From positions 186,001 to 250,000 of the forward strand of contig CADEFN010000006.1 in assembly GCA_902826615.1 (NCBI GenBank): 64,000 nucleotides of DNA, read 5' to 3'. The notes under the pieces were generated by a model. It did no database searches, was not told the origin of the DNA, and worked only from the letters and a program-made list of their open reading frames with translations. The translations under genes and the position numbers were made by a program. Source of the DNA: an uncultured Gemmatimonadota bacterium (GTDB taxonomy: Bacteria; Gemmatimonadota; Gemmatimonadetes; Gemmatimonadales; Gemmatimonadaceae). Positions 29,194 through 59,627 of this stretch are shown here, one piece after another; the first letter of the stretch is position 1, and every line of letters starts with the position of its first letter.

Positions 29194-29221
29194 GTTGCGC
29201 GGTCGGCGTCAGCCGCGCAAC
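29194..29221. terminator. Hairpin between convergent genes
   Basis: A perfect 9-bp stem GTTGCGCGG/CCGCGCAAC with a 10-base loop between the convergent protease-fusion and ADOP genes, overlapping the ADOP stop. There is no T-run, so termination is only suggested by position. Confidence 0.4.
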
Positions 29222-31950
29222 GCTTCCACCGGGTCGGTCCCCGCGGCTCGCCGTGCGGGCAGGAGGGCGGCAAGGGTCGCGAAGGCGATCAGCACAACCG
29301 CCGCCAGCGCCAGCACCCACGGATCGGTCGGGCTCACCTCGAAGAGGAGCGCCACCAGTGTCCGGTTGACCACAAATGCCCCCAGCATGCCTAACGCGGC
29401 ACCGGTCAGTCCGAGCCGCAGCGAGTCGGTCATCACCATCCGCGACACACTCTGTCGTGTGGCGCCAAGTGCCAGACGAATGCCAATCTCCGCGCGCCGT
29501 TGTGACACGATGTACGACACCACACCATAGGTGCCCACAATACTCAGCGACAACGCGACGGCCGCCGCAATACCAAGGAGCACCATCACAAACGAGGTGC
29601 GTGCCATCGAACGCGACTTGACCTGATCCATGGTCCGCGGTTCCACAAACGGGACACGTGGATTGAGCTCGGCCAGGATCCCCCGAATGGCAGGCGCCAG
29701 GCCTGACGCGGACGATCCCGAAGTGCGCACGGTCCACGTCAGGTCGTTGAGATTGCCGGTACGCTGGTTGATGCGAAAGCCGGTTGGCGCGTAGAAGACC
29801 GCCTCAGTTGGAGGCCGATCGAGCGCCTCGGCGCGCAGCTCGGGGACAACGCCAACGATCTGATACCACTCCTTCGAATCGGCGCCATTGCTGTTGATCC
29901 CGCGCCCGATGGGATCCTGGCCTGGCCAGAGACGTTCGGCGAGGGCGGCGGTGACCACCACGGCCTGCGTGCGATCATCGACATCGCGCCAGGTGGGAAT
30001 GCGGCCGCGCACGCTGATCCGCAGCGACTCGAAGAACCCTGGCATCGCCGTTGGTGTCGATACACATGGGGTCGACTCGCCCGGCGCGTAGGGAGCGTCG
30101 GCACGCCAGACCGTAGTACACCCGGTGCCGAATCCCTCGAAGGGTGCGTACGACACACTCCCGACGTCCGCGACACCCGGCAAGGCACGAATGCGTTCTT
30201 CGAGCACCCGATGGAAGGCGAGGGCTTCTTCCCTCGTGTCGTACTCCGAAAAGGGGAGCGCGAGATTGAAGGCCAGCACATGGCTGGTGTCGAAGCCGGG
30301 GCGCACCTCGCGCAACCGACCAAAGCTGCGCAGCAAGAGCCCCGCGGCGGCCAGCAAGACCAGCGCCGTCGCGAGCTGTGAGACCACGAGAGTGCTGCGC
30401 ACGCGGCGCCGGCCACGGCTCGCCGTGCTCGAGCGGCCTTCGTCACGCATGGTGAGTGTGGTCTCGTCCCGGCGAAAGAGGGGCATTACACCGAAGACCA
30501 GTGCCACCAGCGCCGCCACCCCGATCGCAAAGGCAATGGCCCACGGACCAAGCGCAACAGACGACAGTCTCGGGATATCCGCTGGTGCAAGCGCGATTAC
30601 GCCTCGAAGGGCGGCCCATGAAAGCACCATCCCGAGCACACACGCCACCGTGCAGAGTGCCAGACTCTCGGCGATGTAGTGGACCGCCAGATGGCGGCGG
30701 TCAGCGCCGAGCGCGGTGCGTACCGCCACTTCACGTCGTCGTGCCTCGAAGCGCACCAGGAACAGGTTGGCCACATTGGCCGCGGCGATACTCATGACCA
30801 GGAGCACGGCGGCGAACAGCATCCACAAGGTGCGGGGCAGGGTGGGGCCAAGCACCTCCTCACGCAGGGGAGTGACACCCGCGCGGAAGTTGTATTGCTT
30901 CATGAAGCCGGCCGTGTACGCGTTAGGCACGACGTCGGGGAGTTGCGCCGTCAGTGTGGCCAGCTCGCGCTGGGCGTCGTCGGCCGTATGTCCGGGCCGG
31001 AGGCGCCCCACCCCGACGTATGGATGGTTGTTCCAGAACGGTCCAGCCGGGTCGAGCTTCATGGGAATCCAGAGATCCATGTCCACGCCATTCAGGCTGG
31101 CCGCCGCCGAAAAGGGGCCCGGAATCGGCAGTGTCAGTCCCGGCTCCGTGACGCCGATGACTTCGTACGCGCCGTCGCTGGTCTCGACGCGGCGGCCAAG
31201 AATCTCTGGATCGCCTCCAAATCGACGTTGCCAGTACGCGTACCCGAGCACGACCGCGCGTGCACTGTCCGGGCGATCGTCGTCAGCAGTGACGAGCCGC
31301 CCGAGTGCGGGGCGTGCACGCAGGACGTCGAAGATGGTGGAGGTGACCACGGCCAGGTCCACCACTTCGGCCTCCCGATCGCCCGTGACGACCGTTCCGC
31401 CGACCTGGTAGATGCCAAGATTTGCGAGCGTTTGGCTGTTCTTCCTGAAGTGGAAGTATCCGCCCGGTGAGACGCCCCATTTGCGCTCACCGCTGCCAGG
31501 GACGGTGGCAGGATGCAGCACGGCGACCAGTTCTTCGGGCTGCGAATACGGGAGCGGCCGCAACACCACACTGTCGAGCACCGTAAAGATCGCCGTCGAT
31601 GCGCCGATGCCGAGTGCCAGGGTGAGAACCGCGATGACAGAAAACGACGGAGTGCGGGAGAGTGTGCGAACGGAGCGCACCGTTTCGCGTCGCAGGGCGC
31701 TGAGCCACTCCATGGTTCGCATCTGCCGAAGGCCGGCCTCATCGATCGTAAGCGCATCGCGTTTGTAGGCGGCGGCATCGCCAAAACGGCGCTGCACCTC
31801 GGCAAGTGCTTCGTCCCGCGTCATTCCGTGTGCCATGAACTGCTCGATGCGCCCCTCGAGGTGAAAGCGGAACTCGGCGTCCACATCGGACGCCATGCGC
31901 CCGGATGTCGCCGGGAGCCTGAGGAGGCGTCGGAGGCGATCCTGCTTCAT
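29209..31950 (-). CDS. ADOP-family orphan permease
   Basis: A 913-residue permease with the same plan as the one at 3900: prefix (ASDVDAEFRFHLEGRIEQFMAHG, about residues 20-45), first helix and core, FtsX block at about 410-510, second core and a final FtsX block with 'GIRLALGATRQSVSRMVM' and 'LAALLPARRAAGTDPVEAL'. The start at 31950 gives a 4-bp overlap with padR. No ABC ATPase is adjacent. It converges with the protease fusion gene and has no obvious link to that run. Confidence 0.88.
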   Translation of the reverse strand: MKQDRLRRLLRLPATSGRMASDVDAEFRFHLEGRIEQFMAHGMTRDEALAEVQRRFGDAAAYKRDALTIDEAGLRQMRTMEWLSALRRETVRSVRTLSRTPSFSVIAVLTLALGIGASTAIFTVLDSVVLRPLPYSQPEELVAVLHPATVPGSGERKWGVSPGGYFHFRKNSQTLANLGIYQVGGTVVTGDREAEVVDLAVVTSTIFDVLRARPALGRLVTADDDRPDSARAVVLGYAYWQRRFGGDPEILGRRVETSDGAYEVIGVTEPGLTLPIPGPFSAAASLNGVDMDLWIPMKLDPAGPFWNNHPYVGVGRLRPGHTADDAQRELATLTAQLPDVVPNAYTAGFMKQYNFRAGVTPLREEVLGPTLPRTLWMLFAAVLLVMSIAAANVANLFLVRFEARRREVAVRTALGADRRHLAVHYIAESLALCTVACVLGMVLSWAALRGVIALAPADIPRLSSVALGPWAIAFAIGVAALVALVFGVMPLFRRDETTLTMRDEGRSSTASRGRRRVRSTLVVSQLATALVLLAAAGLLLRSFGRLREVRPGFDTSHVLAFNLALPFSEYDTREEALAFHRVLEERIRALPGVADVGSVSYAPFEGFGTGCTTVWRADAPYAPGESTPCVSTPTAMPGFFESLRISVRGRIPTWRDVDDRTQAVVVTAALAERLWPGQDPIGRGINSNGADSKEWYQIVGVVPELRAEALDRPPTEAVFYAPTGFRINQRTGNLNDLTWTVRTSGSSASGLAPAIRGILAELNPRVPFVEPRTMDQVKSRSMARTSFVMVLLGIAAAVALSLSIVGTYGVVSYIVSQRRAEIGIRLALGATRQSVSRMVMTDSLRLGLTGAALGMLGAFVVNRTLVALLFEVSPTDPWVLALAAVVLIAFATLAALLPARRAAGTDPVEALRG

Positions 31951-32291
31951 GCGGCACCTCCCTGCGCAGAGAGCACCATCCCGACGGCTTCGGTGTACCG
32001 TTGCCACCGCGACACCTCGGCCGTGAGCTGCCGGCGCCCGAGTGGTGTGAGTCGATAGAACTTGGCTTTGCGGTTGTTCTCGGTCAGGCGCCAGGTCGCG
32101 TCGACCCATCCACGGTGTTCGAGACGATGCAATGCCGGATAGAGCGCTCCTTCCTCGATCTGCAGTCGGTTCTCGGTGACCTGCTCGATCCAGCGCAGCA
32201 CACCAAGCCCGTGCTGCGGTCCCCAGCCCAGGGTCTTGAGGATGAGGAGATCGAAGGTGCCGCGCAGGAGTTCGAGTTCAGGATCAGGCAT
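31947..32291 (-). CDS. PadR-family transcriptional regulator
   Basis: A 114-residue PadR repressor: 'LLRGTFDLLILKTLGWGPQHG' at the N-terminus, 'EEGALYPALHRLEHRGWVD' at the recognition helix, 'TENNRKAKFYRLTPLG' at the wing. It overlaps the permease start by 4 bp. A perfect 8-bp inverted repeat lies 36 bases upstream, across a TTGACA/TATAAA-like promoter, which supports autorepression. Confidence 0.9.
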   Translation of the reverse strand: MPDPELELLRGTFDLLILKTLGWGPQHGLGVLRWIEQVTENRLQIEEGALYPALHRLEHRGWVDATWRLTENNRKAKFYRLTPLGRRQLTAEVSRWQRYTEAVGMVLSAQGGAA

Positions 32292-41358: not shown

Positions 41359-41387
41359 TTGACACCAACTGAGGCGGGGGCAACTTT
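41359..41387 (+). promoter_or_regulatory. TTGACA promoter of the forward glucan operon
   Basis: TTGACA at 41359-41364, a 17-base GC-rich spacer and AACTTT at 41382-41387 as a weak -10. The downstream part overlaps the 23-bp operator, so a repressor bound there would block polymerase. Confidence 0.5.
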
Positions 41388-41406
41388 GTCCACGAATCGA
41401 ACAAAG
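41384..41406. promoter_or_regulatory. Likely ROK operator, copy B
   Basis: CTTTGT, eight bases (CCACGAAT), then CGAACAAAG. The same ends and length occur at 54996-55018 in front of the opposing operon. ROK (XylR/NagC) repressors bind such TTTGTT/AACAAA dyads, and one is encoded between the two copies. Confidence 0.65.
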
Positions 41407-41463: not shown

Positions 41464-44400
41464 ATGGGCCCCAATCGTTGCTCCGCCTCCGGTCGTCAGG
41501 GACTCCGCTGGGTCGCTGCCGCTGTTGCCGCGCTCACCCTCCTCTCGGCGGACACGCTGCATGCGCAGCGCATACAGGTGGTTTCTGACGCTGGTGGCTC
41601 GCGCCTCCAGGTCGACGGACGCGACTTCATGATCCAGGGGGTCAACTGGGACTACTTCCCCATTGGCCAGAACTACGCCTACAACTTCTGGGGTCAGTCC
41701 GACGACTTCATCAAGACCGCGCTCGATCGGGAGATGTCGCTCCTCAAGAGCATGGGTGTGAACGCCATTCGTCAGTACAACGGGGTGCCACCCAAGTGGG
41801 TGCGCTACATCTATGAGAACTACGGGATTTTCACGGTCCTCAATCATCCCCTCGGGCGATACGGCTACACCCTCAACGGCACCTACGCACAGAACACCGA
41901 TTACTCCAATCCCGCACTGCGCCAGGCACTCATCGCCGAGGTGACGGCACTGGTTGACGAGTTCAAGGGAACGCCCGGCGTGCTCATGTGGCTGCTGGGG
42001 AATGAGAACAACTACGGACTGGTCTGGAAGTCGGCCGAGACCGAGGGGCTCCCGGTGGGAGAACGCGATGGGGCCAAGGCGCGCTACCTCTATTCCCTTT
42101 TTGGTGAAACGATCCGCGCCATCAAGGCACGCGATACGGAACACCCGGTCGCCATGGCCAACGGCGACCTGCAGTACATCGACATCATCGCCGAGGAGAC
42201 CAAGGGCCTCGACATCTTTGGTACCAACGTCTACCGCGGGCTCTCCTTCGGTGACGCGTTCCAGCGCGTGAAGGACAAGCTGGGCGTGCCCATCATGTTC
42301 ACCGAGTTTGGGGCAGACGCCTGGAATGCCCGTGAGATGCGTGAGGACCAGCAATCGCAGGCCAAGTATCTCCTCGCCCAGTGGGAAGAGATCTATCAGC
42401 ACTCGGCAGGAAAGGGTGGCGTGGGTAACGCCATCGGCGGGCTCACCTTCCAGTGGACCGATGGGTGGTGGAAGGTGAAGCAGGAAGAGCGGCTCGATGT
42501 CCATGACACCGACGCCGGCTGGGGCAATCAGGCCTACCTCGATGATTGGTCGCCCGGTGACAACAACATGAACGAGGAGTGGTGGGGGATCACGGCCAAG
42601 GGGCCCGCCGATTTCCGCGGTCACTTCCAGTTGTTTCCTCGCGCGGCGTATTACGCGCTGCAGCGGGTCTACACGATGAATGCCTATGGCCCCGGTGTGG
42701 ACGTCCCCGCCATTCGCGCGCACTTCGCCGCCATTTCTCCCTCGGAGATGGAGCTCCGCGCCCGCGGCGACAAGGCGGCCCTCTCATCGAATGCTTCGGA
42801 GCGTGTGCGGCTGAGCTCCATGCGGTTGGAGCTTACCACCTTCAATACCGGCGGCCAGCGTATCTCCACGCCACCCAGTGGCGCCGCCAGCACCACGGCG
42901 CGTCCCGGGTTCGTCGGCTTCGACCGGATGGAATCGTACTTCGCCGAGCTGGTTGCCCACCCCGCACAGAACGTCTCGGCGAGCCTGGCGCTCAACATGC
43001 TTGGTCGCGTGCCTGACAACCCGATCGACGAAATCTTCTACGAAAATCGCGGGCGCAGCCGCAACGTGCAGCAAGCCGACGGGAGCACGCTCCGGCTTTC
43101 GGACATTGAACGGCTCAAGGTGTACCGGGCAAGTTTGTCGTGGGATGAGCGCAACTTCCGGCTCGACGGCTTCTACCGCACGGGTCACTACCACTGGGGC
43201 TACGAGGGCGACTTCTTCGGTATCTACCGCGAAGCCAACTACGGCCCCAACATCGACATCTACAACGGAGAAGCACCCCTTGGTGTCGAGTTTACCGGCA
43301 AGCGCGCCTTTGAAGGATTCAAGCTCGCCCTTGGTCCCGAACTCTGGTGGGGAGCCAACCCTGCCGTGGTGGCCAAATACCGCCGGAAGGTTGGTGACTT
43401 CGACGTGACGGGTGTCTACCAGGAAGACATCGCGCGGCAGGGCGCTGCTGCGTCGTCCTTTGCCGTTCCCATTCCGCCGGTGCGTATCGGCACGCTGCAC
43501 CTTGCCACCAGCAATGGGCCGATGGGGTTTGAAATCGGCGGCATCTGGGGCGGCAATACCAAGGTCGGGCAGGTGTTCCAGGTGGCAGACGGCGGCCCGG
43601 GCAACTATCGCATGCTGCAGGACCGCATCAAGGACTCGGACGCGTTAGGCGCCAAGGCCAAGGTCACGCTGTCGCGTGGACGCTGGAACTGGTACGCGCA
43701 GAGTGCTGCCATGGGGCTGGTGGCCGATGCCGGTCCCACGTCGACCATGACGTTCACGGGCTGGGGTCTGCGTGACAGCGGAAGTGGCAATCAGTGGAAC
43801 GCGCTCACCGGGGCGACCTACACCTGGGGGCGTTTCCAGATCGCGCCAAACTTCCTCTGGCAGAAGCCACTGGTTGGCCCGGTGCCCGTGGATGTGCCGG
43901 CGCCGGGGCGTCCGCGCAACATCCTCGCCGATCCCTTCTCGGTGCGTGCCAATCGCGAGCAGACGGCGGGCGAACTCCTCGTGAGTTTTGATCCGACGCC
44001 GGCCACCTTCATGTACGCGTGGGACGCCGACAATCGCGAGGATGCGCGGTTTGCGATGAACCTCGGATTCATCTTCCGCCATCTCCCCACCACACAGGAC
44101 GCCGCCATCGGTATCCTGGCCGACGGACGGACACTTTTTGCCTTCCCTGGTGCGGCGCCGGCACAGGACCTCTGGGAAGTGCGGTCGCGCATCGTGTCGC
44201 GTGTGTCGTCGGATCTGCGTCTGATCGCCAATCTGTACGGTGGCACCGCCCAGCCTAACGGCAACGACGGCCGGTTGCTCAAGCGGTATGGCGGCGACCT
44301 GCGCATGGCCAAGGGTCAGGTAAAGCTGATGGGTGCCGCCAAGTTCAACGACTGGGGTCCCTTCGACTACCACCGTGACTTCAACCTGACATACCCCACA

Positions 44401-44628
44401 CAACTCATGGGGGATCTGTCGTACTTCCTGGGCCTCCCCAGCTGGTTCAATGTGCCGGGGACACGCTTCGGGCTGCGTGGCACATGGCGGACACTTGATC
44501 GCTTCTCGCCGCGGTTCTGCCCCGAACGTTTGTCTGACGCCACGGGGAACGCCGTGTGCGACCCCACCGCACCCGCCAAGACCGGGCGTGAGTGGGAAAT
44601 CCGCTCCTATCTCACGGTTGGCTGGTAG
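41464..44628 (+). CDS. Glycoside hydrolase fused to a predicted outer-membrane beta-barrel
   Basis: A 1054-residue protein with a signal peptide ending near LHAQ. Residues about 45-430 are a clan GH-A-like TIM barrel (GH2/GH5-like): acid/base Glu181 in LGNENN and nucleophile Glu281 in FTEFGAD. From about 530 to the end it changes to alternating amphipathic strands rich in Y, W, F and G ('FRLDGFYRTGHYHWGYEG', 'RWNWYAQSAAMGL', 'YTWGRFQIAPNFLWQ') and ends in a terminal Trp after 'WEIRSYLTVGW', the usual signal for outer-membrane barrel assembly. It heads the forward operon, just behind the operator. It probably cuts glucan at the cell surface; whether the barrel is also a pore is unknown. Confidence 0.75.
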   Translation: MGPNRCSASGRQGLRWVAAAVAALTLLSADTLHAQRIQVVSDAGGSRLQVDGRDFMIQGVNWDYFPIGQNYAYNFWGQSDDFIKTALDREMSLLKSMGVNAIRQYNGVPPKWVRYIYENYGIFTVLNHPLGRYGYTLNGTYAQNTDYSNPALRQALIAEVTALVDEFKGTPGVLMWLLGNENNYGLVWKSAETEGLPVGERDGAKARYLYSLFGETIRAIKARDTEHPVAMANGDLQYIDIIAEETKGLDIFGTNVYRGLSFGDAFQRVKDKLGVPIMFTEFGADAWNAREMREDQQSQAKYLLAQWEEIYQHSAGKGGVGNAIGGLTFQWTDGWWKVKQEERLDVHDTDAGWGNQAYLDDWSPGDNNMNEEWWGITAKGPADFRGHFQLFPRAAYYALQRVYTMNAYGPGVDVPAIRAHFAAISPSEMELRARGDKAALSSNASERVRLSSMRLELTTFNTGGQRISTPPSGAASTTARPGFVGFDRMESYFAELVAHPAQNVSASLALNMLGRVPDNPIDEIFYENRGRSRNVQQADGSTLRLSDIERLKVYRASLSWDERNFRLDGFYRTGHYHWGYEGDFFGIYREANYGPNIDIYNGEAPLGVEFTGKRAFEGFKLALGPELWWGANPAVVAKYRRKVGDFDVTGVYQEDIARQGAAASSFAVPIPPVRIGTLHLATSNGPMGFEIGGIWGGNTKVGQVFQVADGGPGNYRMLQDRIKDSDALGAKAKVTLSRGRWNWYAQSAAMGLVADAGPTSTMTFTGWGLRDSGSGNQWNALTGATYTWGRFQIAPNFLWQKPLVGPVPVDVPAPGRPRNILADPFSVRANREQTAGELLVSFDPTPATFMYAWDADNREDARFAMNLGFIFRHLPTTQDAAIGILADGRTLFAFPGAAPAQDLWEVRSRIVSRVSSDLRLIANLYGGTAQPNGNDGRLLKRYGGDLRMAKGQVKLMGAAKFNDWGPFDYHRDFNLTYPTQLMGDLSYFLGLPSWFNVPGTRFGLRGTWRTLDRFSPRFCPERLSDATGNAVCDPTAPAKTGREWEIRSYLTVGW

Positions 44629-44665: not shown

Positions 44666-46942
44666 ATGCCGGTGCCGCGTGTGATGCACACAGCTTCTCC
44701 TCCTCCCGATGTGCCGCAGGCCGATGCGGCAGGGATCGAGGCACGTGTTGCCGATCTGTTGTCGAGGATGACGCTGGAAGAGAAGATCGGCCAGCTGGCG
44801 CAGGTCTCTGGCGGTCGTGATCACGTGCCGGACCACCTGCGGGATGCCATTCGTGAAGGCCGTGTGGGCGCCGTCCTCAATGAAGTGCACGTGGACGTGG
44901 TCAACGAGCTGCAGCGCATCGCGACCGAGGAGTCGCGCCTGGGCATCCCATTGCTCGTGGGGCGTGACGTGATTCACGGGTTCACAACCGTCTTCCCGAT
45001 CCCACTCGGCCAGGCGGCGAGTTTCGATCCGGATGGCGTGCAGCGTGCCGCGCGTGTGGCCGCCCTCGAAGCCGCGGCGCGCGGAATCAACTGGACCTTC
45101 GCGCCCATGATCGACATCTCCCGCGATCCGCGATGGGGGCGTGTTGCGGAGTCGTTAGGCGAGGATCCGTATCTCACGGCGACATTGGGCGCGGCCATGG
45201 TGCGTGGATTCCAGGGAGACCAATCATTGGGCCCCGGTCACCTGGCCGCCTGCGCCAAACATTTCGCAGGGTATGGCGCCTGCGAGAGCGGCCGTGACTA
45301 CGCCACGACCAGCATTCCCGAGCACGACCTCCGCAATGTGCATCTTCGTCCGTTTCACGCGGCGGTGCAGGCCGGAGTGGCGTCGATCATGACCTCGTTC
45401 AGCGACGTGAATGGTGTGCCCGCCACCGCCAACACCTTTCTGCTGACGCAGGTGTTGCGCGAGGAATGGGGCTTTGATGGCATGGTCGTGAGCGACTGGG
45501 ACTCCATCCGACAGCTCTCCGTGCATGGTCTCACCGAAGACGATCGCGGCTCGGCGCGCTTGGCGGCGTGCGCGGGAACCGACATGGAGATGGCGAGTCA
45601 CACCTACGCGCACCACCTCGCGTCGCTTGTACGAGATGGTGAGGTGCCGGAAGCGCGCATTGATGCCATGGCCGGGAATGTGTTGCGCACCAAGTTGCGA
45701 CTGGGGCTCCTCGAGCGGCCCTACACCAATCCAGCCGACTATCCGGCCGCGGCGAGTGCCGAACATCTGCAGGCAGCCCGTGATGCCGCTGCGGCGTGTA
45801 TGGTGCTCCTCAAGAACGAAGGGCACACACTCCCACTCGCTGCTGACCACCTCACCTCGCTGGCCATCATCGGCCCCCTGGCCGACGACGCCTACGAACA
45901 ACTCGGCACCTGGATCTTTGACGGCGACGCACAACACAGCGTCACCCCGCTCCGCGCCCTGCACGAACTGGTTGGGGATCGGGTCACACTGCGTTATGCA
46001 CGTGGATGCGCAACGACCCGCAGTCGCGACGATGCGGGATTCGCAGCGGCCGTGGAAACCGCCACACAATCGGATGCGGTGGTTCTCTTCCTTGGTGAAG
46101 AAGCCATTCTCTCGGGAGAAGCACACTGCCGCGCAGATATCGGTCTCCCCGGCAATCAGGAAGCTCTGGTGGAGGCCATCGCCGCCACCGGCAAACCCGT
46201 GATTCTTGTGCTCATGACAGGCCGTCCACTCGCCCTCGAGCGGGTCGCCGAGCGTTGTCATGCCATTCTCTGCGCCTGGCATCCCGGGACAATGGGTGGC
46301 CCCGCCATCGCCGACATTCTCTTCGGAAATGTCTCGCCATCGGCTCGTCTTCCGATCACCTTCCCGCGTGTCACGGGGCAAGTCCCCATCTACTACGCGC
46401 AGAAGGCCGGCGGCAAACCGCCCACACACGCTTCGTACATCCATATCGACAACATCGAGCCGCGTGCGCCACAACTCTCGGTGGGCAACACGTCCTTTCA
46501 CCTCGATGTGCTCTGGACTCCGCTCTGGCCTTTTGGGCACGGGCTGTCCTATACGACGTTCGAGTATCACGACATCAGCGTCAGTGCGGCCGTGGTTCCC
46601 ATGGAGGGCATGGTGACGGTCAGCGTTGAGGTGGTCAACACGGGACACCGCGACGGCGATGAGGTGGTACAGCTCTACATTCGCGACCTGGTAGCGTCGG
46701 TCACTCGGCCGGTGAAGGAGCTGCGAGCATACCGGCGCATCCATCTCACCTCGGGTGAGCGCCAGGTGATCGAATTCCACCTGACGGCTGCCGACCTCGC
46801 ATTTTATGGAGGCGCGATGCAGCGTATCACGGAACCCGGACGCTTCCGCGTCTGGATTGGCGGAAGTTCCGACGCGCAGCTCTACACCGAGTTCGAACTC
46901 AGGGGCGACACTCTCACGCTTCCGGCTTCTACCACATCATGA
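44666..46942 (+). CDS. GH3 beta-glucosidase with Fn3-like domain
   Basis: A 758-residue glycosidase of family 3. The N-terminal barrel (about 25-350) carries LLVGRDVIHG, AKHFAGYG and the nucleophile Asp277 in MVVSDWDS. The (alpha/beta) sandwich follows with LKNEGHTLPL, and an Fn3-like C-terminal domain with 'SVEVVNTGHRDGDEVVQLYI'. No signal peptide is seen, so it probably hydrolyses imported gluco-oligosaccharides in the cytoplasm. Starts at 44666 and 44684 are both possible; neither has a strong ribosome site. Overlaps the next GH3 gene by 4 bp. Confidence 0.88.
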   Translation: MPVPRVMHTASPPPDVPQADAAGIEARVADLLSRMTLEEKIGQLAQVSGGRDHVPDHLRDAIREGRVGAVLNEVHVDVVNELQRIATEESRLGIPLLVGRDVIHGFTTVFPIPLGQAASFDPDGVQRAARVAALEAAARGINWTFAPMIDISRDPRWGRVAESLGEDPYLTATLGAAMVRGFQGDQSLGPGHLAACAKHFAGYGACESGRDYATTSIPEHDLRNVHLRPFHAAVQAGVASIMTSFSDVNGVPATANTFLLTQVLREEWGFDGMVVSDWDSIRQLSVHGLTEDDRGSARLAACAGTDMEMASHTYAHHLASLVRDGEVPEARIDAMAGNVLRTKLRLGLLERPYTNPADYPAAASAEHLQAARDAAAACMVLLKNEGHTLPLAADHLTSLAIIGPLADDAYEQLGTWIFDGDAQHSVTPLRALHELVGDRVTLRYARGCATTRSRDDAGFAAAVETATQSDAVVLFLGEEAILSGEAHCRADIGLPGNQEALVEAIAATGKPVILVLMTGRPLALERVAERCHAILCAWHPGTMGGPAIADILFGNVSPSARLPITFPRVTGQVPIYYAQKAGGKPPTHASYIHIDNIEPRAPQLSVGNTSFHLDVLWTPLWPFGHGLSYTTFEYHDISVSAAVVPMEGMVTVSVEVVNTGHRDGDEVVQLYIRDLVASVTRPVKELRAYRRIHLTSGERQVIEFHLTAADLAFYGGAMQRITEPGRFRVWIGGSSDAQLYTEFELRGDTLTLPASTTS

Positions 46943-48747
46943 CACCAACAAACGACACACAGGCGTCCGCCGCATCGGTGGAATCACTCCTCGCCCGCAT
47001 GACGCTGGACGAAAAGCTCGGACAGATGATGCAACCCGAGCGCATGGCCGTCACGCCTGACGATGTCCGAACGCACTTTTTGGGTTCGATCCTGAGCGGC
47101 GGGGGATCGTGTCCGGGTGACAATCGCCCGAGTGACTGGATCGCGATGAATGACGCCTACTGGGCGGCGTCGATGAGCACCGAAGGGGGACGAACCCCTG
47201 TTCCACTCCTGTATGGCGTGGACGCGATTCATGGTCACGCCAATGTTCTGGGCGCGACGGTTTTTCCGCACAACATCGGTCTTGGGGCCACCGGCGATTC
47301 CGAGCTTCTCGAGCGCATTGCGCGAATCACGGCGCGTGAAGTGCTGGCGACCGGCGTTGACTGGACCTTTGCGCCAACCCTCGCCGTGGCCAACGATCTC
47401 CGCTGGGGACGGACCTACGAGAGTTACTCCGAAGATGCCTCCCTGGTCGCTCGTTATGCATCACGCTTTGTGCGCGGGCTGCAGGGCGATATGGGACGTG
47501 ATGGCGTGGTGGCATGCGCCAAACACTGGGTGGGTGATGGCGGGACCGATCTGGGATACGATCAGGGTGACACCATCCTCGACGAGGAAGCTCTCACCTC
47601 CACGCACATCGCACCCTATCTCCCGGCGCTCGCCGAGGGCGTGCTGACGGTGATGGCGTCGTTCAACAGCTGGAACGGCAACAAGTGCCATGGCCACCGA
47701 TACCTGCTCACCGATGTGCTCAAGGGACGTCTGGGCTTTTCGGGATTTGTCATTTCCGACTGGGATGGGGTGGACTACCTCCACGAGGACTACGCGACGG
47801 CCATCGCCATGGCGGTGAATGCTGGCGTGGACATGCTGATGGTCTCCGTGGAGTGGCGGGCCTGCCTTGCGCACCTCAAACAGCGTGTCGTGGATGGCAC
47901 CATCCCCATGGCGCGTATCGACGACGCGGTGCGTCGGATCCTCACGGTGAAAGAGCGCTTCGGACTCTTTGGCAAGGCGCGCCCTGCTGATCGGTACTGG
48001 TCACAGGTGGACTGCCTCGGCGCGGCGGACCATCGAGTGGTGGCGCGCGAAGCGGTGCGCAAATCACTGGTGTTGCTCAAGAACGACAACGCCATCCTGC
48101 CGCTCGCACCTGGCGCGAGAATTCTCGTGGCAGGAAGGAACGCCGACAACCTTGGTCACCAGTGTGGTGGTTTCACGGTCGCGTGGCAGGGGACCAGTGG
48201 CAACGAGTCTGTGCCAGGCGGCACCTCCATCTGGGGCGGCATTCGGGCGGCGGCCCCCGGTGCAACACTGAGCGTCGACGGCTCTGCTGCCAGCGCCGCG
48301 GCACACGATGTGGCCATCGTGGTGGTTGGTGAGCGACCCTACGCCGAAGGGATGGGTGACCTGCGAGGGCAGGAGACGATTGGAGCCGGTTCAGGTGCTG
48401 GTGGCAAAGCCAAACGACTGGCACCATACGGTGACTCTCTCTCTCTCAGTGTGTTGCACCCCGAAGACCTTGCCACCATTCGCGCCATTCGCGACAAGGG
48501 GATCCCGGTGGTGACGGTGCTGGTGTCGGGACGGCCGCTGGAAGTGAATGAGGAGCTGGCCCACTCTGCAGCGTTTGTCGCTGCATGGCTCCCGGGATCG
48601 GAGGGGGCAGGGGTGGCCGATGCGCTCTTTGGCACGCACCCCTTCCAGGGCACACTTCCCTTTGCGTGGCCGGCCACCGCCGAGGGCGCGACCTATCCGG
48701 CGCGCCGCGCGAGCTCGCTCTTTCCGTTGGGATTCGGCCTTCGCTGA
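46939..48747 (+). CDS. Second GH3 glucan glucosidase
   Basis: A 602-residue family 3 enzyme without the Fn3 domain, like exo-1,3/1,4-beta-glucanases. Motifs: LLYGVDAIHGH, CAKHWVGDGGT, nucleophile Asp274 in VISDWDGV, and LVLLKNDNAILPL. No signal peptide. Its start overlaps the previous GH3 stop (ATGA), so translation is coupled. It likely trims different oligosaccharides than its partner. Confidence 0.88.
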   Translation: MTPTNDTQASAASVESLLARMTLDEKLGQMMQPERMAVTPDDVRTHFLGSILSGGGSCPGDNRPSDWIAMNDAYWAASMSTEGGRTPVPLLYGVDAIHGHANVLGATVFPHNIGLGATGDSELLERIARITAREVLATGVDWTFAPTLAVANDLRWGRTYESYSEDASLVARYASRFVRGLQGDMGRDGVVACAKHWVGDGGTDLGYDQGDTILDEEALTSTHIAPYLPALAEGVLTVMASFNSWNGNKCHGHRYLLTDVLKGRLGFSGFVISDWDGVDYLHEDYATAIAMAVNAGVDMLMVSVEWRACLAHLKQRVVDGTIPMARIDDAVRRILTVKERFGLFGKARPADRYWSQVDCLGAADHRVVAREAVRKSLVLLKNDNAILPLAPGARILVAGRNADNLGHQCGGFTVAWQGTSGNESVPGGTSIWGGIRAAAPGATLSVDGSAASAAAHDVAIVVVGERPYAEGMGDLRGQETIGAGSGAGGKAKRLAPYGDSLSLSVLHPEDLATIRAIRDKGIPVVTVLVSGRPLEVNEELAHSAAFVAAWLPGSEGAGVADALFGTHPFQGTLPFAWPATAEGATYPARRASSLFPLGFGLR

Positions 48748-48771: not shown

Positions 48772-48808
48772 CCGGGGCAGGTAGCCGTCAGGCGGTTGCC
48801 TGCCCCGG
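48772..48808. terminator. Strong terminator hairpin between the two glucan operons
   Basis: A 16-bp stem (CCGGGGCAGGTAGCCG with CGGTTGCCTGCCCCGG, two G-U pairs), loop TCAGG, followed by TTT on the plus strand. It lies at the meeting point of the convergent operons and overlaps the last codons of the transporter gene. It should stop the forward transcript. Confidence 0.65.
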
Positions 48809-50329
48809 TTTGCCACGCCGGCGCTCCAGTTCGTCGCGCACCTCGTGTGCCTTGGCCTCGGTGATGTTGTACGTCGCCAGCACCCAGATGGCGATGGCCG
48901 AGCAGACCGCCGGCACGCCAGCATCAAAGAGGCGCAGCAGGGTGATGGTGCGTTCGCCCTGTTCACCGGCGCGCGCCACATCGAAGCCGGTCGCGTTGAG
49001 GAGGTAGCCGCCGCCAGCAAGCGCGGCCGCCATTCCCAGCTTTACCACCCACCAGTAGATCGCGCCAAAGATCCCCTCACGCCGCTGGTGTGACTCGAGT
49101 TCATCCACGTCCACCACGTCGGCAATCATGGACCCCATGAGCGTGAACAACCCGCCAAGCCCGAATGAGAGCAGCGGCACCGGAACAAGAATCAGCAGCG
49201 GGTGCTCTGGGCTGTAGCAGAACCACTTGAGCACATACCCGACGATGGAAATGCCGGTGGAGACAAAGAAGGCCCGGCGCTTGCCGATTTTCGTCGCGAG
49301 CCAGGTGATGAAGAAGATGACGGCAAAAGTGGAGACGGCGCCGAGTGTGCCGGCATATCCAGCATAGCGTGCGCCCGCTTCCTGGTCACCGGCAAAGACG
49401 TAGTAAATGATGACGTACAGCTGGAACGACGAGATCATGATGAAGCTGTTGAAGACCAGGAAAGTGGCCGAACAGAGCTTCAGGAAAGGCCGCGACTTGA
49501 GAGTCGACGCAAACGTCCCGAAGAACTCGGAGATGTTGTGCTTGACGGCGTCCCATTTGGACACGGCCTTGGCGGTGGCGGCGTCGGCGACCTGCTGGAA
49601 TCGCTCGCGCAATGCCAGCGCCGGCACAATGCCCACCACAATCGCCAGCACGCCGATGGCGATCGCCAGACCACGGGCCCCCTGCACCTGATCGGGAAAC
49701 CAGGCCTTGTTGTTCATGATCCAGAGAAACCACGGTGACACGACGTAGGCGAGCTGACCGATGAAGTTCTGCACTCCCATCAGCCGCGTGCGTTCGTGAT
49801 AGTCCGGTGTCAGCTCGTAGCCGAGGGCCACCCACGGCGCGGCAAAGATGGTGTACCCGACGTAGAACACAATCGAGCCCACCAGAAACCAGGTGGCGTA
49901 GAAGGTCTCGGTCTTGCCGGCGGGCAGCTGCCAGAGCAGCGCGAAGGTGATGCCGGAGAGAATGGCGCCAACAAAGATGTAGGGACGCCGACGTCCCCAC
50001 CGCGAGCGGGTGTTGTCGGAGATGTGGCCCATCAGCGGGTCGATGAGCGCGTCGGTGAGCCGCGGCAGCGCGCCGAGGAGCCCGACCAGCGCCGGATCCA
50101 TCCCCAACCCGAGATTCAGGACGACGATCATGCCGCCGATCGCTGCGGCAAGCAGGTTGTTGACAAACGCTCCCATCCCGTAGGCCACCTTCTTCGGGAA
50201 GGAGATGCGGTCTTCAGGTTTGGTGTTGTAAACGATGAAGGGCTTGGCGGCGTCTTTCGATCCGAGCCGCGCATGCCATGCGGCGATCGCGGTGCGACCC
50301 CACGCGTTGAGGCGAGAGAAGGCGCTCAT
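48788..50329 (-). CDS. GPH-family sugar:cation symporter
   Basis: A 513-residue transporter with about twelve membrane helices. Family signs are 'KVAYGMGAFVNNLLAAAIGG' at the first helix, 'DALIDPLMGHISDNTRSRWGRRRPYI' in the loop after helix 2, and 'LGYELTPDYHERTRLMGVQN'. Glycoside-pentoside-hexuronide symporters import di- or oligosaccharides with Na+ or H+. It is the last gene of the reverse operon, with a 1-bp overlap (TGATG) with the GH16 gene, and probably imports the glucan fragments cut outside. Confidence 0.9.
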   Translation of the reverse strand: MSAFSRLNAWGRTAIAAWHARLGSKDAAKPFIVYNTKPEDRISFPKKVAYGMGAFVNNLLAAAIGGMIVVLNLGLGMDPALVGLLGALPRLTDALIDPLMGHISDNTRSRWGRRRPYIFVGAILSGITFALLWQLPAGKTETFYATWFLVGSIVFYVGYTIFAAPWVALGYELTPDYHERTRLMGVQNFIGQLAYVVSPWFLWIMNNKAWFPDQVQGARGLAIAIGVLAIVVGIVPALALRERFQQVADAATAKAVSKWDAVKHNISEFFGTFASTLKSRPFLKLCSATFLVFNSFIMISSFQLYVIIYYVFAGDQEAGARYAGYAGTLGAVSTFAVIFFITWLATKIGKRRAFFVSTGISIVGYVLKWFCYSPEHPLLILVPVPLLSFGLGGLFTLMGSMIADVVDVDELESHQRREGIFGAIYWWVVKLGMAAALAGGGYLLNATGFDVARAGEQGERTITLLRLFDAGVPAVCSAIAIWVLATYNITEAKAHEVRDELERRRGKPGQATA

Positions 50330-51114
50330 CAGCGGCGATAGATGCGAACCCAGTCCACACTCATCGTCTGCGGAAAGACGGTCGAACCATCAGGCGGGCC
50401 GACGTACCCACCACCCACCGCGAGATTCAGGATGATGTAGAAGGGGTGGTCAAAGACCCAGTCGCCCGGGACGTAGGTGCGTTTGATCTCGTGGTACAAC
50501 GTGCCATCCACCCGCCACTCGATGGAGGACTCATCCCATTCCACCGAGAACACATGGTAGGTGTCGTCAAAGCGGCCATTGTCCAGGGCAAAACGCCGGG
50601 TCATTCCTTTGCTGGCGGAGTAGCCCGGTCCATGCAGCGTGCCGTGTACCAGGCTGGGTTCCTGCCCGCGGTACTCGACGACGTCGATCTCGCCGGACTG
50701 CGGCCATCCCACAACATCCTCGTTGGCGCCCAACAACCAGAAAGCAGGCCAGATCCCTCGCCCTGACGGCATCTTGATGCGGGCCTCGAAGCGCCCGTAC
50801 TTGCGTTCGACCTTGCCCTGGGTGGTGATACGTGCCGAGGTATAGTTGCGCCCGCGGAAGCTCTCGAGACGGGCCGTGATGTTGAGGTGGCCGGCACCGT
50901 CGAGTGAGGCATTCGTCGCCCGGTCGGTGTCATACTCGAGCTGGGCATTACCCCAGTCTTCGCCGACGTCAAAACGCCAGTTGGTCTGGCTCGGCAGCGC
51001 ACCGGCCGCGCCGTTGAATTCATCTTCCCAGTCCAGCACCCAGGGGCCCGGGTCATCCTTGCATCCGGCGACGCTGGCCAGGGCGAGTGCGAAAAGGACG
51101 ACGCTTCTTTTCAT
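50329..51114 (-). CDS. GH16 beta-glucanase lipoprotein (laminarinase-like)
   Basis: A 261-residue enzyme. The signal FALALASVAGC has a good lipobox (Cys18). The jelly-roll carries the GH16 site GEIDVVEYRG with Glu142 (nucleophile), Asp144 and Glu147 (acid/base), preceded by 'FEARIKMPSGRGIWPAFWLLG'. This order is that of endo-1,3-beta-glucanases (laminarinases) and lichenases. As a lipoprotein it acts in the periplasm or at the outer membrane. ATG at 51114 is chosen because the lipoprotein signal starts there. Confidence 0.9.
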   Translation of the reverse strand: MKRSVVLFALALASVAGCKDDPGPWVLDWEDEFNGAAGALPSQTNWRFDVGEDWGNAQLEYDTDRATNASLDGAGHLNITARLESFRGRNYTSARITTQGKVERKYGRFEARIKMPSGRGIWPAFWLLGANEDVVGWPQSGEIDVVEYRGQEPSLVHGTLHGPGYSASKGMTRRFALDNGRFDDTYHVFSVEWDESSIEWRVDGTLYHEIKRTYVPGDWVFDHPFYIILNLAVGGGYVGPPDGSTVFPQTMSVDWVRIYRR

Positions 51115-51166: not shown

Positions 51167-52477
51167 CTAACGTGGCTTGACGCCAGGGAACAGGGACGGG
51201 TCTTTCAGGGCTGCGTCCAGCACCAGGGTGGCGGCGCCAAGCGCAATGGCGCGCGGCCCGAGCGCGCTGGTCATGATTTCACAGGTGGCGAGCGAACTCA
51301 CGAAGGTCCGGCGCAGCACCGTTTCGCGCAGCGGCACGAGCAGCCGCTCCCCTAGACGGGCAATGCCGCCCCCGATGATCACGGCGCCGGGGTTCATCAG
51401 GTTCAGCACACCAGCTACCGCAATCCCCAGGTACTCGGCGATGTCACGGGTCACTTGCACGGCGAGCGGGTCGTCGGCCAGGACGGCGTCTTCCCAGGTG
51501 GTAATGGTCAGCTCGCTCCGGTGCAGCACACTGTCCGGGTACTCGGGAAGGAGACGGCGCACCCGGTTCACCACGGCGCGCGCGCCAACAAAGGTCTGCA
51601 GGCAGCCGCGATTGCCGCAGTCGCAGGTGTCGCCCGAGAGATCGATGGTGAGGTGGCCGATTTCTCCGGCTACGCCACTGGCCCCGGCCGCAATACGACC
51701 CGACACCATGTGACCCGCACCAACACCCGTGGCCACCTTGATGTAGGTGAAGTCGTTGAAACGGCGCCCTTCACCCCACCACTGGTCGGCGAGTGCGCCG
51801 AGATTGGCGTCGTTGTCCACCAGCACCGGCACATTCCAGCGTTGGCCAAGGGACTCGAAGCCATGCCGACCCTTCCAGGCTGGAAGCACGTGCGTGGAGA
51901 GGCGCTCCTGATGACGCGGGTCGACGGGGCAGGGCACGGCGAACCCCAGACCTAACAGCTGCGTGCTGCTCCCGCCCCAGCGCGCGAGGCAACGGGTGCA
52001 CAGATCATCGATGAGCTGGCGCGTGCCTTCCGGGTCCTGACGCACGGGAAGGCTGGCACTTTCCCAGGCCAGAACCGCACCGCGGAGATCGGTCAGGACC
52101 ACCGACACGTGGGTGGCGCCCATGTCCACGCCGAGGATTACACAGGCCTCGTCTCTGAACTCGAGGACGATCGGGGGACGGCCTCCACTCGACTCTCCCT
52201 CACCCGCTTCGTCCACCAACCCCGTGGCGAGGAGGTAGGTGACGATCTCGGAAACGGTCGAACGTGAGAGTCCGGTGACACGAGCAATGTCTGCCCGTGA
52301 AATAGCCTTCTCCTTCCAGATGAGCCGGAGCACGGAGTCGGTCAGCGAGGCAGGGCGCCCCTCCTCGGCTGACTGGCGTGCTGGCGGTTTGGCGGGCGAA
52401 CGCCGCGTCGCATTCGCCGGCAACTCTCTGGACGGAGCCGCGAGCCCCGTCACACTACGCCTCTTGCGCTGGCCCAC
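51167..52477 (-). CDS. ROK-family transcriptional repressor (XylR/NagC type)
   Basis: A 436-residue regulator from a GTG start. A winged helix-turn-helix lies at about 45-100 ('AISRADIARVTGLSRSTVSEIVTYLL'). The ROK sugar-binding domain follows, with VDMGATHVSV (phosphate-1 loop), LVDNDANLGAL (substrate Asp) and the zinc motif CDCGNRGC. ROK repressors leave DNA when their sugar binds. It sits inside the reverse glucan operon. The matched 23-bp dyads in front of both operons are its likely sites. The stop TAG lies in a CGTTAGG heptamer. Confidence 0.9.
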   Translation of the reverse strand: MGQRKRRSVTGLAAPSRELPANATRRSPAKPPARQSAEEGRPASLTDSVLRLIWKEKAISRADIARVTGLSRSTVSEIVTYLLATGLVDEAGEGESSGGRPPIVLEFRDEACVILGVDMGATHVSVVLTDLRGAVLAWESASLPVRQDPEGTRQLIDDLCTRCLARWGGSSTQLLGLGFAVPCPVDPRHQERLSTHVLPAWKGRHGFESLGQRWNVPVLVDNDANLGALADQWWGEGRRFNDFTYIKVATGVGAGHMVSGRIAAGASGVAGEIGHLTIDLSGDTCDCGNRGCLQTFVGARAVVNRVRRLLPEYPDSVLHRSELTITTWEDAVLADDPLAVQVTRDIAEYLGIAVAGVLNLMNPGAVIIGGGIARLGERLLVPLRETVLRRTFVSSLATCEIMTSALGPRAIALGAATLVLDAALKDPSLFPGVKPR

Positions 52478-52501: not shown

Positions 52502-54931
52502 CTACTTGTGCAGCAGGACGTTGTCGACGAAAACCGTAGGGGTATCGCCCGCGAAGATCAACTGCGCCAGGTGGCCCCGGGTAACCAGGCCGGTGAAGGC
52601 GGTGAGGGGAATGTCAAAACGGACCCAGTTGCCGGTGGTCAGCGACGGGGTCGACGCGCGTGTGAAGGTGAGCTCGTGCTCCACGTCATCGCCGCCACCA
52701 AAGGCGCCGCCCGCACCGAAGTCGACGAGCTTTACCTTGAAGACCGCGGGGGCCGCCGTGGGTGCCGGCGTCCAGATGTCGAACGAAAAGTGGGTCATCG
52801 CCGAGGCATTGATCTGCTTGGACGTGAACTCGATGCCCACGAACACCATGTTCGAGTACTTCTTCACATCGTCGCCCGCGACCTTCACGTCGGCGACGTC
52901 GGCGGCGTCCCAGTCGGCCGACCAGGTATCGACGGTGACGTTGGTGTACGCGTTGCTGAAGAGCGAGATCACGTCACCCGGGGCGAAGGTTGGCGCCGGT
53001 GCCGCGGTGGCGGGCGCGCTCAGCGTGCCGCCGGTATAGAAGTAGACGTTGTCGACAAAGAAGGTCTTGAGGTCGCCCACCAGAATCATCTGCGCCAGAT
53101 GGGCTCGGCCTTTGAGGCCAGTGAAGGCCGTGAGGGGAACGTCGATACCAACCCAGCCGCCGGTGGTTAGTGGCGGAGTGGATGACGCCGTGATCGAGAT
53201 CTCGTGTTCGGAGTCGTCGCCACCATCGAAGGTCCCGTTAGGCCCGAAGTCGACGAGTTTGATGCGGAAGGACGCGGGTGCCGTGGTGGCGTCGGGAGTC
53301 CAGATGTCCATGTGGAACGAGGTCATCGGGGTCGCGTCGATCGGCTTGGACGTGAACTCGATGCCGGCAAAGACCACATTGCTGTACTTCCTGGTGTCGT
53401 TCCCCTGCACCTTGATGTCTTCCACGTCCGCCTGGTCCCATGGGGCCGACCAGGTGTCGACCGTGGCATTGGGGTAGGCGTTGCTGAAGAGGGAGATCAC
53501 GTTGCCGGCCGGAGCGGTTGGTGTCGGCGCAGCGGTGACCGGTGCGGTTGGGGCGGGGACTCGGTAGAAGTAGACGTTGTCGACGTAGATCGTCGGGCTC
53601 GACCCCGAAATGATCATCTGCGCGAGATTGCCTCGCGCCCTCAGCCCCGTGAATGCGGCGAGGGGAATGTCGAGGGAGTTCCACGATCCCGTACCTACCG
53701 CCGGTGTGGTGGTTCGCGAGAGTGCGACCTCGTGTTCAGAGTCGTCGCCACCGCCGAACACTCCGTTGGCGCCGAAGTCAACCAGCTTCACCCGGAATGC
53801 GCCCGCGTCCTGCGTCCAGACGTCGAGGTGGAGGAGGGTACTGGCTGACGCGTTGACGGTGCGGGAGAGGAACTCGATGCCTGCAAAGGAAAGCTTGGTG
53901 TACTTCTTGGCGGCGTCGCCACCCACCTGCACGTCGGCCACGTCGGCCTGGTCCCATGTGGCCGACCAGGTATCCACCGGCACGTTGGGGTAGGCACCGC
54001 TGAAGAGGGCGATGACGTCGGCGGCCGGGCGAGTGGGTGTGGGTGCGGCCGCGGTGGGCGGCGCGGCGGCCGTGAGGGAGACGGCGCCGGTGGCCTGGGT
54101 CGCGCCTAACGAAGCCGTGACTGACGCGGACCCGGCGCCAACGACCTGGATGGAGCCATCGGCGGCAACGCGCGCCACGGCCTCATTGGATGACCGGAAG
54201 GTGAAGTACGCCGGAGACGCCGTGACAACCTGATCGGTGCCGAAGACATCGAAGGTGACGGAGGTGCCGGAGACCTTGAAGGCCGACCCCACTTCGTCGC
54301 TGATGGTTGCCGCCGCGATCGCGGGGCGCGGGTTGCGAATGGTCGCGAGGTTCTCGAACTGGATCTCGTCAAACCAGATGGTGTTGCCGGCGCCGTTTTC
54401 GGCTCCTTCTGCAAAAAAGAAGGTGCCCTTCTCTCGCGCGAGCCGCGCGGCGAGGGGCACCGGAATGGCGTACTTCTTCCAGACGGTGGTGAGCTGCAGT
54501 TCGGTGCTTTGTGCCGAATACTGGGAGCTCCCGGAGTTGTCATTGCCAATGCCCGCTACGTCGAGTTTGGCGGGTGAGCTGGACCTGGCCCAGAAGGTGA
54601 GGGCGTTGTAGCTGGTGAGGTCGCGCGGGACGAAGGCCACAAACGCGCCGCCGGCATATCCACCCGACGCATCACCAGGCCCCGGAACGGTCACCCGGAT
54701 CGCGCTCGTTCCGCGCGCCTTGGTGGTCGGATCGATGGAGACGGCGTCGAGCTTGGAGCCACCGAATGGCTCGAAGTTCACCCCGATGAAGGTGTCGTCG
54801 AAGATCGACGACTCGGTGGGGAAGGCCGCGGGCTCGAGCGTTCCGAGGTCTCGTCCGCAGCCGGCCGCGCCGGCCAGGAGGGCAAGGGCGGTCGCCACAA
54901 AGCGAATGCGAGGCGGGCGAGACTGGTGCAT
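52502..54931 (-). CDS. Lipoprotein with three tandem carbohydrate-binding-like repeats
   Basis: An 809-residue lipoprotein (lipobox LLAGAAGC, Cys25). Residues about 40-195 are a jelly-roll CBM-like domain; 200-290 a bacterial Ig-like (BIG2-type) domain. Then come three copies of a domain of about 155 residues at 305-459, 477-633 and 653-808, each starting D/N-V-I-[AS]-LFS and with 'VDTWSA.W', VKLVDFG, 'GGGDD.EHE', IPL.AFTGL and VDNV. Linkers are P/A/T-rich. No catalytic site is seen; it probably binds glucan at the surface. First gene of the reverse operon, 24 bp before the ROK gene. Confidence 0.8.
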   Translation of the reverse strand: MHQSRPPRIRFVATALALLAGAAGCGRDLGTLEPAAFPTESSIFDDTFIGVNFEPFGGSKLDAVSIDPTTKARGTSAIRVTVPGPGDASGGYAGGAFVAFVPRDLTSYNALTFWARSSSPAKLDVAGIGNDNSGSSQYSAQSTELQLTTVWKKYAIPVPLAARLAREKGTFFFAEGAENGAGNTIWFDEIQFENLATIRNPRPAIAAATISDEVGSAFKVSGTSVTFDVFGTDQVVTASPAYFTFRSSNEAVARVAADGSIQVVGAGSASVTASLGATQATGAVSLTAAAPPTAAAPTPTRPAADVIALFSGAYPNVPVDTWSATWDQADVADVQVGGDAAKKYTKLSFAGIEFLSRTVNASASTLLHLDVWTQDAGAFRVKLVDFGANGVFGGGDDSEHEVALSRTTTPAVGTGSWNSLDIPLAAFTGLRARGNLAQMIISGSSPTIYVDNVYFYRVPAPTAPVTAAPTPTAPAGNVISLFSNAYPNATVDTWSAPWDQADVEDIKVQGNDTRKYSNVVFAGIEFTSKPIDATPMTSFHMDIWTPDATTAPASFRIKLVDFGPNGTFDGGDDSEHEISITASSTPPLTTGGWVGIDVPLTAFTGLKGRAHLAQMILVGDLKTFFVDNVYFYTGGTLSAPATAAPAPTFAPGDVISLFSNAYTNVTVDTWSADWDAADVADVKVAGDDVKKYSNMVFVGIEFTSKQINASAMTHFSFDIWTPAPTAAPAVFKVKLVDFGAGGAFGGGDDVEHELTFTRASTPSLTTGNWVRFDIPLTAFTGLVTRGHLAQLIFAGDTPTVFVDNVLLHK
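52508..53033 (-). repeat. Third protein-level repeat of the binding lipoprotein
   Basis: Residues about 653-808. DNA-level identity with the other copies is visible in blocks (VKLVDFG, EHE and AFTGL codons) but diverged, so the copies are old. Confidence 0.6.
53033..53503 (-). repeat. Second protein-level repeat of the binding lipoprotein
   Basis: Residues about 477-633, same motif order as the first and third copies. Confidence 0.6.
53555..54019 (-). repeat. First protein-level repeat of the binding lipoprotein
   Basis: Residues about 305-459, after the Ig-like domain; same motif order as the other two. Confidence 0.6.
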
Positions 54932-54995: not shown

Positions 54996-55018
54996 CTTTG
55001 TTTGATGAGCGAACAAAG
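54996..55018. promoter_or_regulatory. Likely ROK operator, copy A
   Basis: CTTTGT, eight bases (TTGATGAG), then CGAACAAAG: a 7-bp perfect dyad CTTTGTT/AACAAAG with the same length and ends as the copy at 41384-41406. It lies 65 bp upstream of the lipoprotein ATG and just downstream of a minus-strand -35. Confidence 0.7.
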
Positions 55019-59618: not shown

Positions 59619-59627
59619 CCTGTCCTG

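Follow-up and report, generated by a model that had tools for sequence, protein, structure and literature searches.

A GH158-like glycosidase joined to a predicted outer-membrane β-barrel: a candidate enzyme-channel for β-1,3-glucan in Gemmatimonadota and other bacteria

Introduction

β-1,3-glucans such as laminarin make up a major share of the carbon in the sea and of the fibre arriving in the gut, and one gene of an uncultured Gemmatimonadota bacterium raises the question of how these polymers pass the outer membrane in bacteria without SusCD at the glucan locus. The gene lies in a 64,000-nucleotide stretch of contig CADEFN010000006.1 (the window, whose positions are used below). A sequence-only reading had described its product as a TIM-barrel glycosidase with both catalytic Glu, continuous with about 500 residues of aromatic amphipathic strands ending in Trp, which would anchor the enzyme in the outer membrane, perhaps as an enzyme-porin replacing a SusCD system. 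The following analysis combines profile and fold comparison of the two parts with the distribution and gene neighbourhood of the family.

The fusion protein and its glycosidase module

The fusion gene is an intact open reading frame on the + strand (41464-44628; ATG at 41464, stop at 44626-44628) that encodes 1054 residues in the order Sec signal peptide, clan GH-A TIM-barrel glycosidase and predicted 24-stranded outer-membrane β-barrel. The signal peptide occupies residues about 1-34 (...ALTLLSADTLHA-Q; 41464..41565, +) and is without a lipobox; a lipobox-like motif is found in just 5 of 100 N-termini of the family. The TIM barrel begins directly after the signal peptide and extends over residues about 36-430 (41569..42753, +). 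In the AlphaFold2 model the enzyme module stops near residue 430 and is followed by one helix and then strand 1 of the barrel, and enzyme-only relatives end at this same point.

The glycosidase with its two catalytic Glu stands as first described. PF02836 covers residues 47-299 (1.1e-8, 35 bits), other GH2 models of Pfam have no match in the protein, and the jelly-roll sugar-binding and Ig domains that precede the TIM barrel of GH2 enzymes are absent. The closest solved structures are instead those of the endo-β-1,3-glucanase families GH158 and GH157: the top solved-protein matches of a 114-relative profile are BuGH158 (6pal, 1.3e-7) and GH158(Pro) (9oro, 3.4e-5), Foldseek gives 7e-14 against 6pal, and VIA-align places GH157 9g4n (Z 29.0, rmsd 2.9, 309 aligned) and GH158 9p25 (Z 26.8, rmsd 3.5, 294 aligned) first, with GH2 and GH5 enzymes scoring just below. 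The GH158 similarity is significant in sequence and fold, yet the profile match is weak and the relation distant, at 14-22% identity. Asn180-Glu181 (GNE motif; 42001..42006, +) is the predicted acid/base and Glu281 (TEFG motif; 42304..42306, +) the predicted nucleophile, and all three residues are 100% invariant among 105 full-length sequences. The catalytic Glu of BuGH158 are E137, the acid/base, and E220, the nucleophile (PMC7157763); in the profile alignment Glu181 falls on E137, the Glu of a GNE motif, and Glu281 on E220, that of a TEWG motif, and one numbering offset, 22, fits both.

GH158 (6pal, 9oro) and GH157 (LaGH157, 9g4n) share with the fusion the clan GH-A fold, the matching Glu pair and an occurrence in β-1,3-glucan loci. 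BuGH158 differs in that its signal peptide is of type II and its C-terminal domain Ig-like (PMC7157763); the fusion lacks such a domain and has the predicted membrane barrel after its enzyme. Because the fold is common to the whole GH-A clan, enzyme specificity rests mainly on gene context, from which β-1,3-glucan would be the substrate, and the solved GH157 and GH158 enzymes do cut β-1,3-glucan.

The predicted C-terminal barrel

The strand-rich C-terminal part is present as first described, although at about 600 rather than 500 residues (448-1053; 42805..44622, +), and structure modelling returns it as an up-down barrel of 24 strands with Foldseek matches to solved outer-membrane barrels. The AlphaFold2 model from an alignment of 114 sequences (in which model numbering plus 33 gives the residue number) has a pLDDT of 85.8 and a pTM of 0.76, and the identical strands were already present in an earlier model from 30 sequences (pLDDT 68.4, pTM 0.48). 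Like outer-membrane barrels, the model has an even count of long up-down strands, short turns and long outer loops: the connections alternate between loops of median 26 residues on one side and turns of median 2 residues on the other (p = 2e-4). When the two faces are told apart by hydrophobicity, conservation is higher on the lumen side than on the lipid side (p = 7e-4), and the two-residue alternation of hydrophobicity in the C-terminal part averages 0.443 as against 0.343 (s.d. 0.024) in its own shuffles, whereas that of the enzyme part is not above its shuffles.

The Foldseek matches are to BtuB3G3 (8p98, 1.1e-7), C. jejuni MOMP (5ldv, 1.5e-7), PfeA (2e-7) and FepA (3e-7) and are attributable to the C-terminal part alone; the query was the whole fusion model, in which the enzyme dominates, and the barrel TM-scores are modest (target-normalised 0.31-0.35). 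A fold search with the shallow 30-sequence model showed TIM barrels only, and VIA-align on the better model lists the enzyme part only, so that its result leaves the barrel untouched. At the sequence level, Pfam, NCBIfam and PHROGs have no match over residues 430-1054, and the barrel alone finds no usable relative in Pfam and PDB sequences, even at E 10; a DUF6882 match at 5e-4 in some family members looks like noise. No Pfam match to the TonB plug (PF07715) or barrel (PF00593) was found in the fusion protein or in 68 C-terminal parts.

The C-terminal residue is Trp in this genome as first noted, but this is not a trait of the family: F or W ends just 10 of 91 relatives, the others lacking an aromatic β-signal, and position -3 is hydrophobic (I/V/L/F) in 82 of the 91. 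A C-terminal aromatic residue is usual, though not universal, among the outer-membrane barrels inserted by BAM. Anchoring in the outer membrane is supported on the structural side by the barrel model, and that location is the predicted one.

The even number of strands together with the short turns inside would place both chain ends, and hence the enzyme, in the periplasm. It bears on the alternative that the glycosidase is displayed outside the cell with the barrel as its translocator or stalk. Cleavage at the surface would fit the GH16 enzymes and binding lipoproteins encoded nearby, and the order of passenger then barrel resembles type V secretion; against this arrangement, which appears quite improbable, stand the predicted position of both termini on the short-turn side and the absence of a Pfam match to the 12-stranded autotransporter translocator (PF03797), the model having 24 strands.

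Several long loops of the barrel are near-invariant and rich in H, W, Y, D and E (43177-43278, residues 572-605; 43336-43362, residues 625-633; 44356-44388, residues 965-975), and RTGHYHWGYEGDFFG.YREANYGPN, GPELWWGANP and NDWGPYDYHRDFN are near-invariant loop motifs. The long loops are conserved as strongly as the enzyme, which is unusual for porin surface loops, and they could block the lumen instead of forming a path.

Distribution of the fusion

The same architecture was found elsewhere in Gemmatimonadota and in many other phyla. An essentially full-length fusion is present in 41 of 395 sampled Gemmatimonadota genomes, the source genome counted, the others being 57-72% identical, and 33 of 395 genomes of the phylum of Flavobacterium carry it over its full or nearly full length. 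At least 549 relatives were confirmed in a genome scan across bacteria and archaea; the best 80 of them span all or nearly all of the protein, and their records name Gemmatimonadota, Bacteroidota, Ignavibacteria, Calditrichia, Zixibacteria, KSB1, Eisenbacteria, Krumholzibacteriota, Delongbacteria and Thermoanaerobaculia. Among these 80 are isolates of Flavobacterium, Chryseobacterium, Cloacibacterium and Epilithonimonas. The identity of full-length relatives to the fusion protein across Gemmatimonadota, Bacteroidota and several FCB phyla is 49-73%, 49% being the lowest. Gut Bacteroides is represented by B. finegoldii, whose fusion (WP_022275059.1) is annotated "glycoside hydrolase family 2 TIM barrel-domain containing protein". 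A search of 12 diverse genomes gave a single copy in every one; a weak second match in the source genome (L002, residues 734-834) is a chance match to an unrelated membrane-protein reading frame.

The fusion is not a misassembly, because it is full length in so many genomes of the phylum, and the same full-length fusion in more than 100 independent assemblies and isolates rules out a misjoined one. The wider alternative, that the C-terminal part is a soluble β-sandwich or the reading frame misjoined, could draw on the lack of a Pfam or PDB sequence match for that part; it is scarcely credible in view of these assemblies and isolates, the 24-stranded up-down model and the matches to outer-membrane barrels.

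The locus and its probable operator

The fusion gene is followed after 37 bp by a gene for a BglX-like GH3 β-glucosidase with no signal peptide seen (44666..46942, +; PF00933/PF01915, NF011678 above cut-off), with which it probably shares an operon, and this gene overlaps by 4 bp that of a second GH3 enzyme (46939..48747, +; PF00933/PF01915). On the minus strand lie genes for a GPH-type MFS sugar symporter of the inner membrane (48788..50329; PF13347, 1.3e-66), a GH16 lipoprotein with lipobox VAGC (50329..51114; PF00722, 3.7e-25), a ROK-family repressor with an HTH (51167..52477; PF00480, 3.5e-51) and a modular lipoprotein with lipobox GAAGC (52502..54931), whose CBM11-like/Big_2 start is followed by repeats of about 150 residues.

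These oppositely directed units share a palindrome, a probable operator. One copy, CTTTGTCCACGAATCGAACAAAG (41384..41406), stands 57 bp ahead of the fusion ATG, and a second (54996..55018) about 65 bp ahead of the modular lipoprotein gene. The pattern CTTTGT-N11-ACAAAG, with at most one mismatch, has just two sites in the 5.9-Mb genome (a control pattern has 0), and the full form, CTTTGTTCGG-N3-CCGAACAAAG, is kept upstream of the fusion gene in most Gemmatimonadota relatives. Since the palindrome occurs only before these two genes and is kept in relatives, the two units appear to form a single small regulon, with the ROK-family protein the likely reader of the palindrome.

Elsewhere the window holds a tandem pair of sulfatase genes (58086-61070; PF00884 with SGSH_C), three MacB/FtsX-type permease genes, all on the minus strand (3900-6746, 16372-19065 and 29209-32109), and a reading frame of 867 residues in which a trypsin-like domain precedes a β-lactamase-like domain in one chain (26577-29180).

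Gene neighbourhood in relatives

Neighbours within 8 kb were counted in 56 full-length loci having at least 5 kb on each side. All but one of these well-flanked loci (55/56) contain one or more genes of the β-1,3-glucan set: GH16 is found in 50, a relative of the modular lipoprotein, the conserved partner of the fusion, in 46, GH149 in 30, MFS and GH17 in 22 each, GH3 in 12 and GH30 in 10. One GH149 neighbour was verified against the solved β-1,3-oligosaccharide phosphorylase 6hq6 (1595 bits), and three further neighbour genes have GH81 domains. A three-gene core of fusion, lipoprotein and GH16 in a row is found in Persicobacter and in B. finegoldii. The assignment of the fusion locus to β-1,3-glucan is supported by these neighbours.

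The B. finegoldii locus (L142, 11867-22903) holds the fusion, lipoprotein and GH16 genes together with a fimbrillin-family protein gene and bglX, on a record titled plasmid 29; as this record also carries rpsA and a valine-tRNA ligase gene, it is perhaps a mislabelled piece of chromosome.

The neighbourhood also weighs on a housekeeping role, in which the fusion would process self-made β-glucan (periplasmic glucan or exopolysaccharide) for export and not uptake. Its very strong conservation and the one copy in each of the 12 diverse genomes would suit such a role, which is nevertheless very unlikely: the partners, namely the MFS symporter, GH3 and the GH149 phosphorylase, are degradative or serve import, the recurrent neighbours identified include no glucan synthase, and the fusion occurs in a minority of sampled genomes.

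SusC/SusD systems and relatives without a barrel

The earlier proposal that the fusion replaces a SusCD system fits the window, where there is no SusD or plug match and no adjacent susC/susD pair, but across genomes amounts only to a tendency. Outside the window's stretch, about 17 SusD-like and 57 plug matches are present in the source genome, and SusC or SusD relatives lie near the fusion in 5 of 90 full-length loci, so that the barrel is not always the sole route; when 50 large unclassified neighbours were scanned with Pfam, no more TonB receptors came up among the 25 families listed.

Nine enzyme-only relatives (L112-L120) of about 450 residues have been found, several with a lipobox and others with a plain signal peptide. 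In a tree built from the enzyme module, their positions require 5 changes, at least 4 of them by well-supported branches; this scatter suggests that the barrel has been lost repeatedly, probably at least four separate times, and thus that enzyme and barrel are separable. SusCD adjoins two of them, L113 and L114, and the full-length relatives among which L114 falls in the tree have SusC/D genes as well. As a predictor of barrel loss, the presence of SusCD fails to reach significance (5/90 barrel loci against 2/8 enzyme-only loci; Fisher p = 0.10), and the association is suggestive. A joint loss of lipoprotein and barrel was considered and dropped, the lipoprotein repeats occurring in other proteins of the enzyme-only loci.

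These observations bear on the main rival reading, in which the barrel is an anchor in the outer membrane only, holding the glucanase on the inner side of that membrane beside another transporter and carrying no glucan itself. The highly conserved long loops may fill the lumen, SusC/D is present in a few of the barrel loci, and the source genome has many TonB-dependent receptors elsewhere. A 24-stranded barrel of some 600 residues, with a lumen more conserved than its lipid face, would however be a costly anchor given that a lipid anchor or a plain signal peptide serves in the enzyme-only relatives, and most loci, as well as the Persicobacter three-gene core, show no other outer-membrane channel. 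On balance an anchor alone seems unlikely, though it is the alternative to be taken most seriously.

A proposed mechanism

The reading that we favour, as somewhat probable, is that the fusion is an outer-membrane enzyme-channel for laminarin-like β-1,3-glucan, with the enzyme placed under a plug-less barrel. The protein would be exported by Sec and its barrel inserted into the outer membrane by the BAM machinery, with both chain ends facing the periplasm and the GH158-like glucanase hanging beneath the channel. Outside the cell the surface lipoprotein and the GH16 lipoprotein would bind and trim the glucan; chains or oligosaccharides would then cross the plug-less barrel, the conserved long loops and lumen providing a selective path, and the glucanase would cut chains as they emerge. 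By cutting on emergence the enzyme could hold an inward gradient without TonB. The MFS symporter would carry the products inward, to be processed in the cytoplasm by the GH3 enzymes or, in other loci, by a GH149 phosphorylase. Of this scheme, the fusion, its catalytic residues, the barrel, the gene partners and the common operator come from sequence or model, and membrane location, side of the enzyme, substrate and transport are inferred. A more far-reaching suggestion, put forward tentatively and with considerable doubt, is that such a TonB-independent importer with enzyme-driven uptake constitutes a third outer-membrane route in addition to SusCD and passive porins, one that is common throughout the FCB group and has escaped notice under its GH2 label.

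Relation to known systems

The fusion locus has in common with SusC/SusD importers a large outer-membrane barrel, a glycan-binding surface lipoprotein and glycosidases, all encoded together; it differs in that the fusion has no plug match, has 24 predicted strands and not 22, and has an enzyme in the place of the plug, and in that SusD models do not match the partner lipoprotein. PgaA/BcsC-type polysaccharide porins likewise join a periplasmic N-terminal module to a C-terminal outer-membrane barrel that handles glycan; unlike the fusion they have TPR repeats in place of an enzyme, 16 strands, and a role in export, not import.

The nearest idea to the fusion is the MFS-GH17 fusion of Formosa, in which a CAZyme is joined to a transporter in laminarin use and a coupling of cleavage and uptake was proposed (PMC6246565); that protein belongs to the inner membrane and carries GH17, in contrast to the outer-membrane barrel and GH158-like enzyme here. 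The porin FORMB_11920, which laminarin induces in Formosa, is another gene and is nitrogen-linked. CAZyme clusters that contain GH149 and no susCD have been described (PMC5827456). In a laminarin PUL of Muricauda, a "GH2 beta-glycosidase" is encoded upstream of GH17, GH30 and MFS, with GH16 and GH149 present (PMC13188888); judged by the locus description this protein probably belongs to the fusion family, and the passages on it treat it as a GH2 enzyme and mention no barrel. Searches of the open-access literature brought up no account of uptake by a glycosidase that is joined to an outer-membrane barrel.

Implications

The database name of the fusion, "GH2 TIM barrel", overlooks its barrel. 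Since a protein of about 1050 residues carrying the family 2 TIM-barrel annotation in such loci is a predicted outer-membrane protein, PUL predictions should not assume a soluble GH2 enzyme. A conserved protein that would combine channel and enzyme, in culturable Flavobacterium and Chryseobacterium and in gut Bacteroides, makes the passage of β-1,3-glucan through the outer membrane a directly testable question, and the architecture may represent an undescribed way of taking up algal or fungal glucans.
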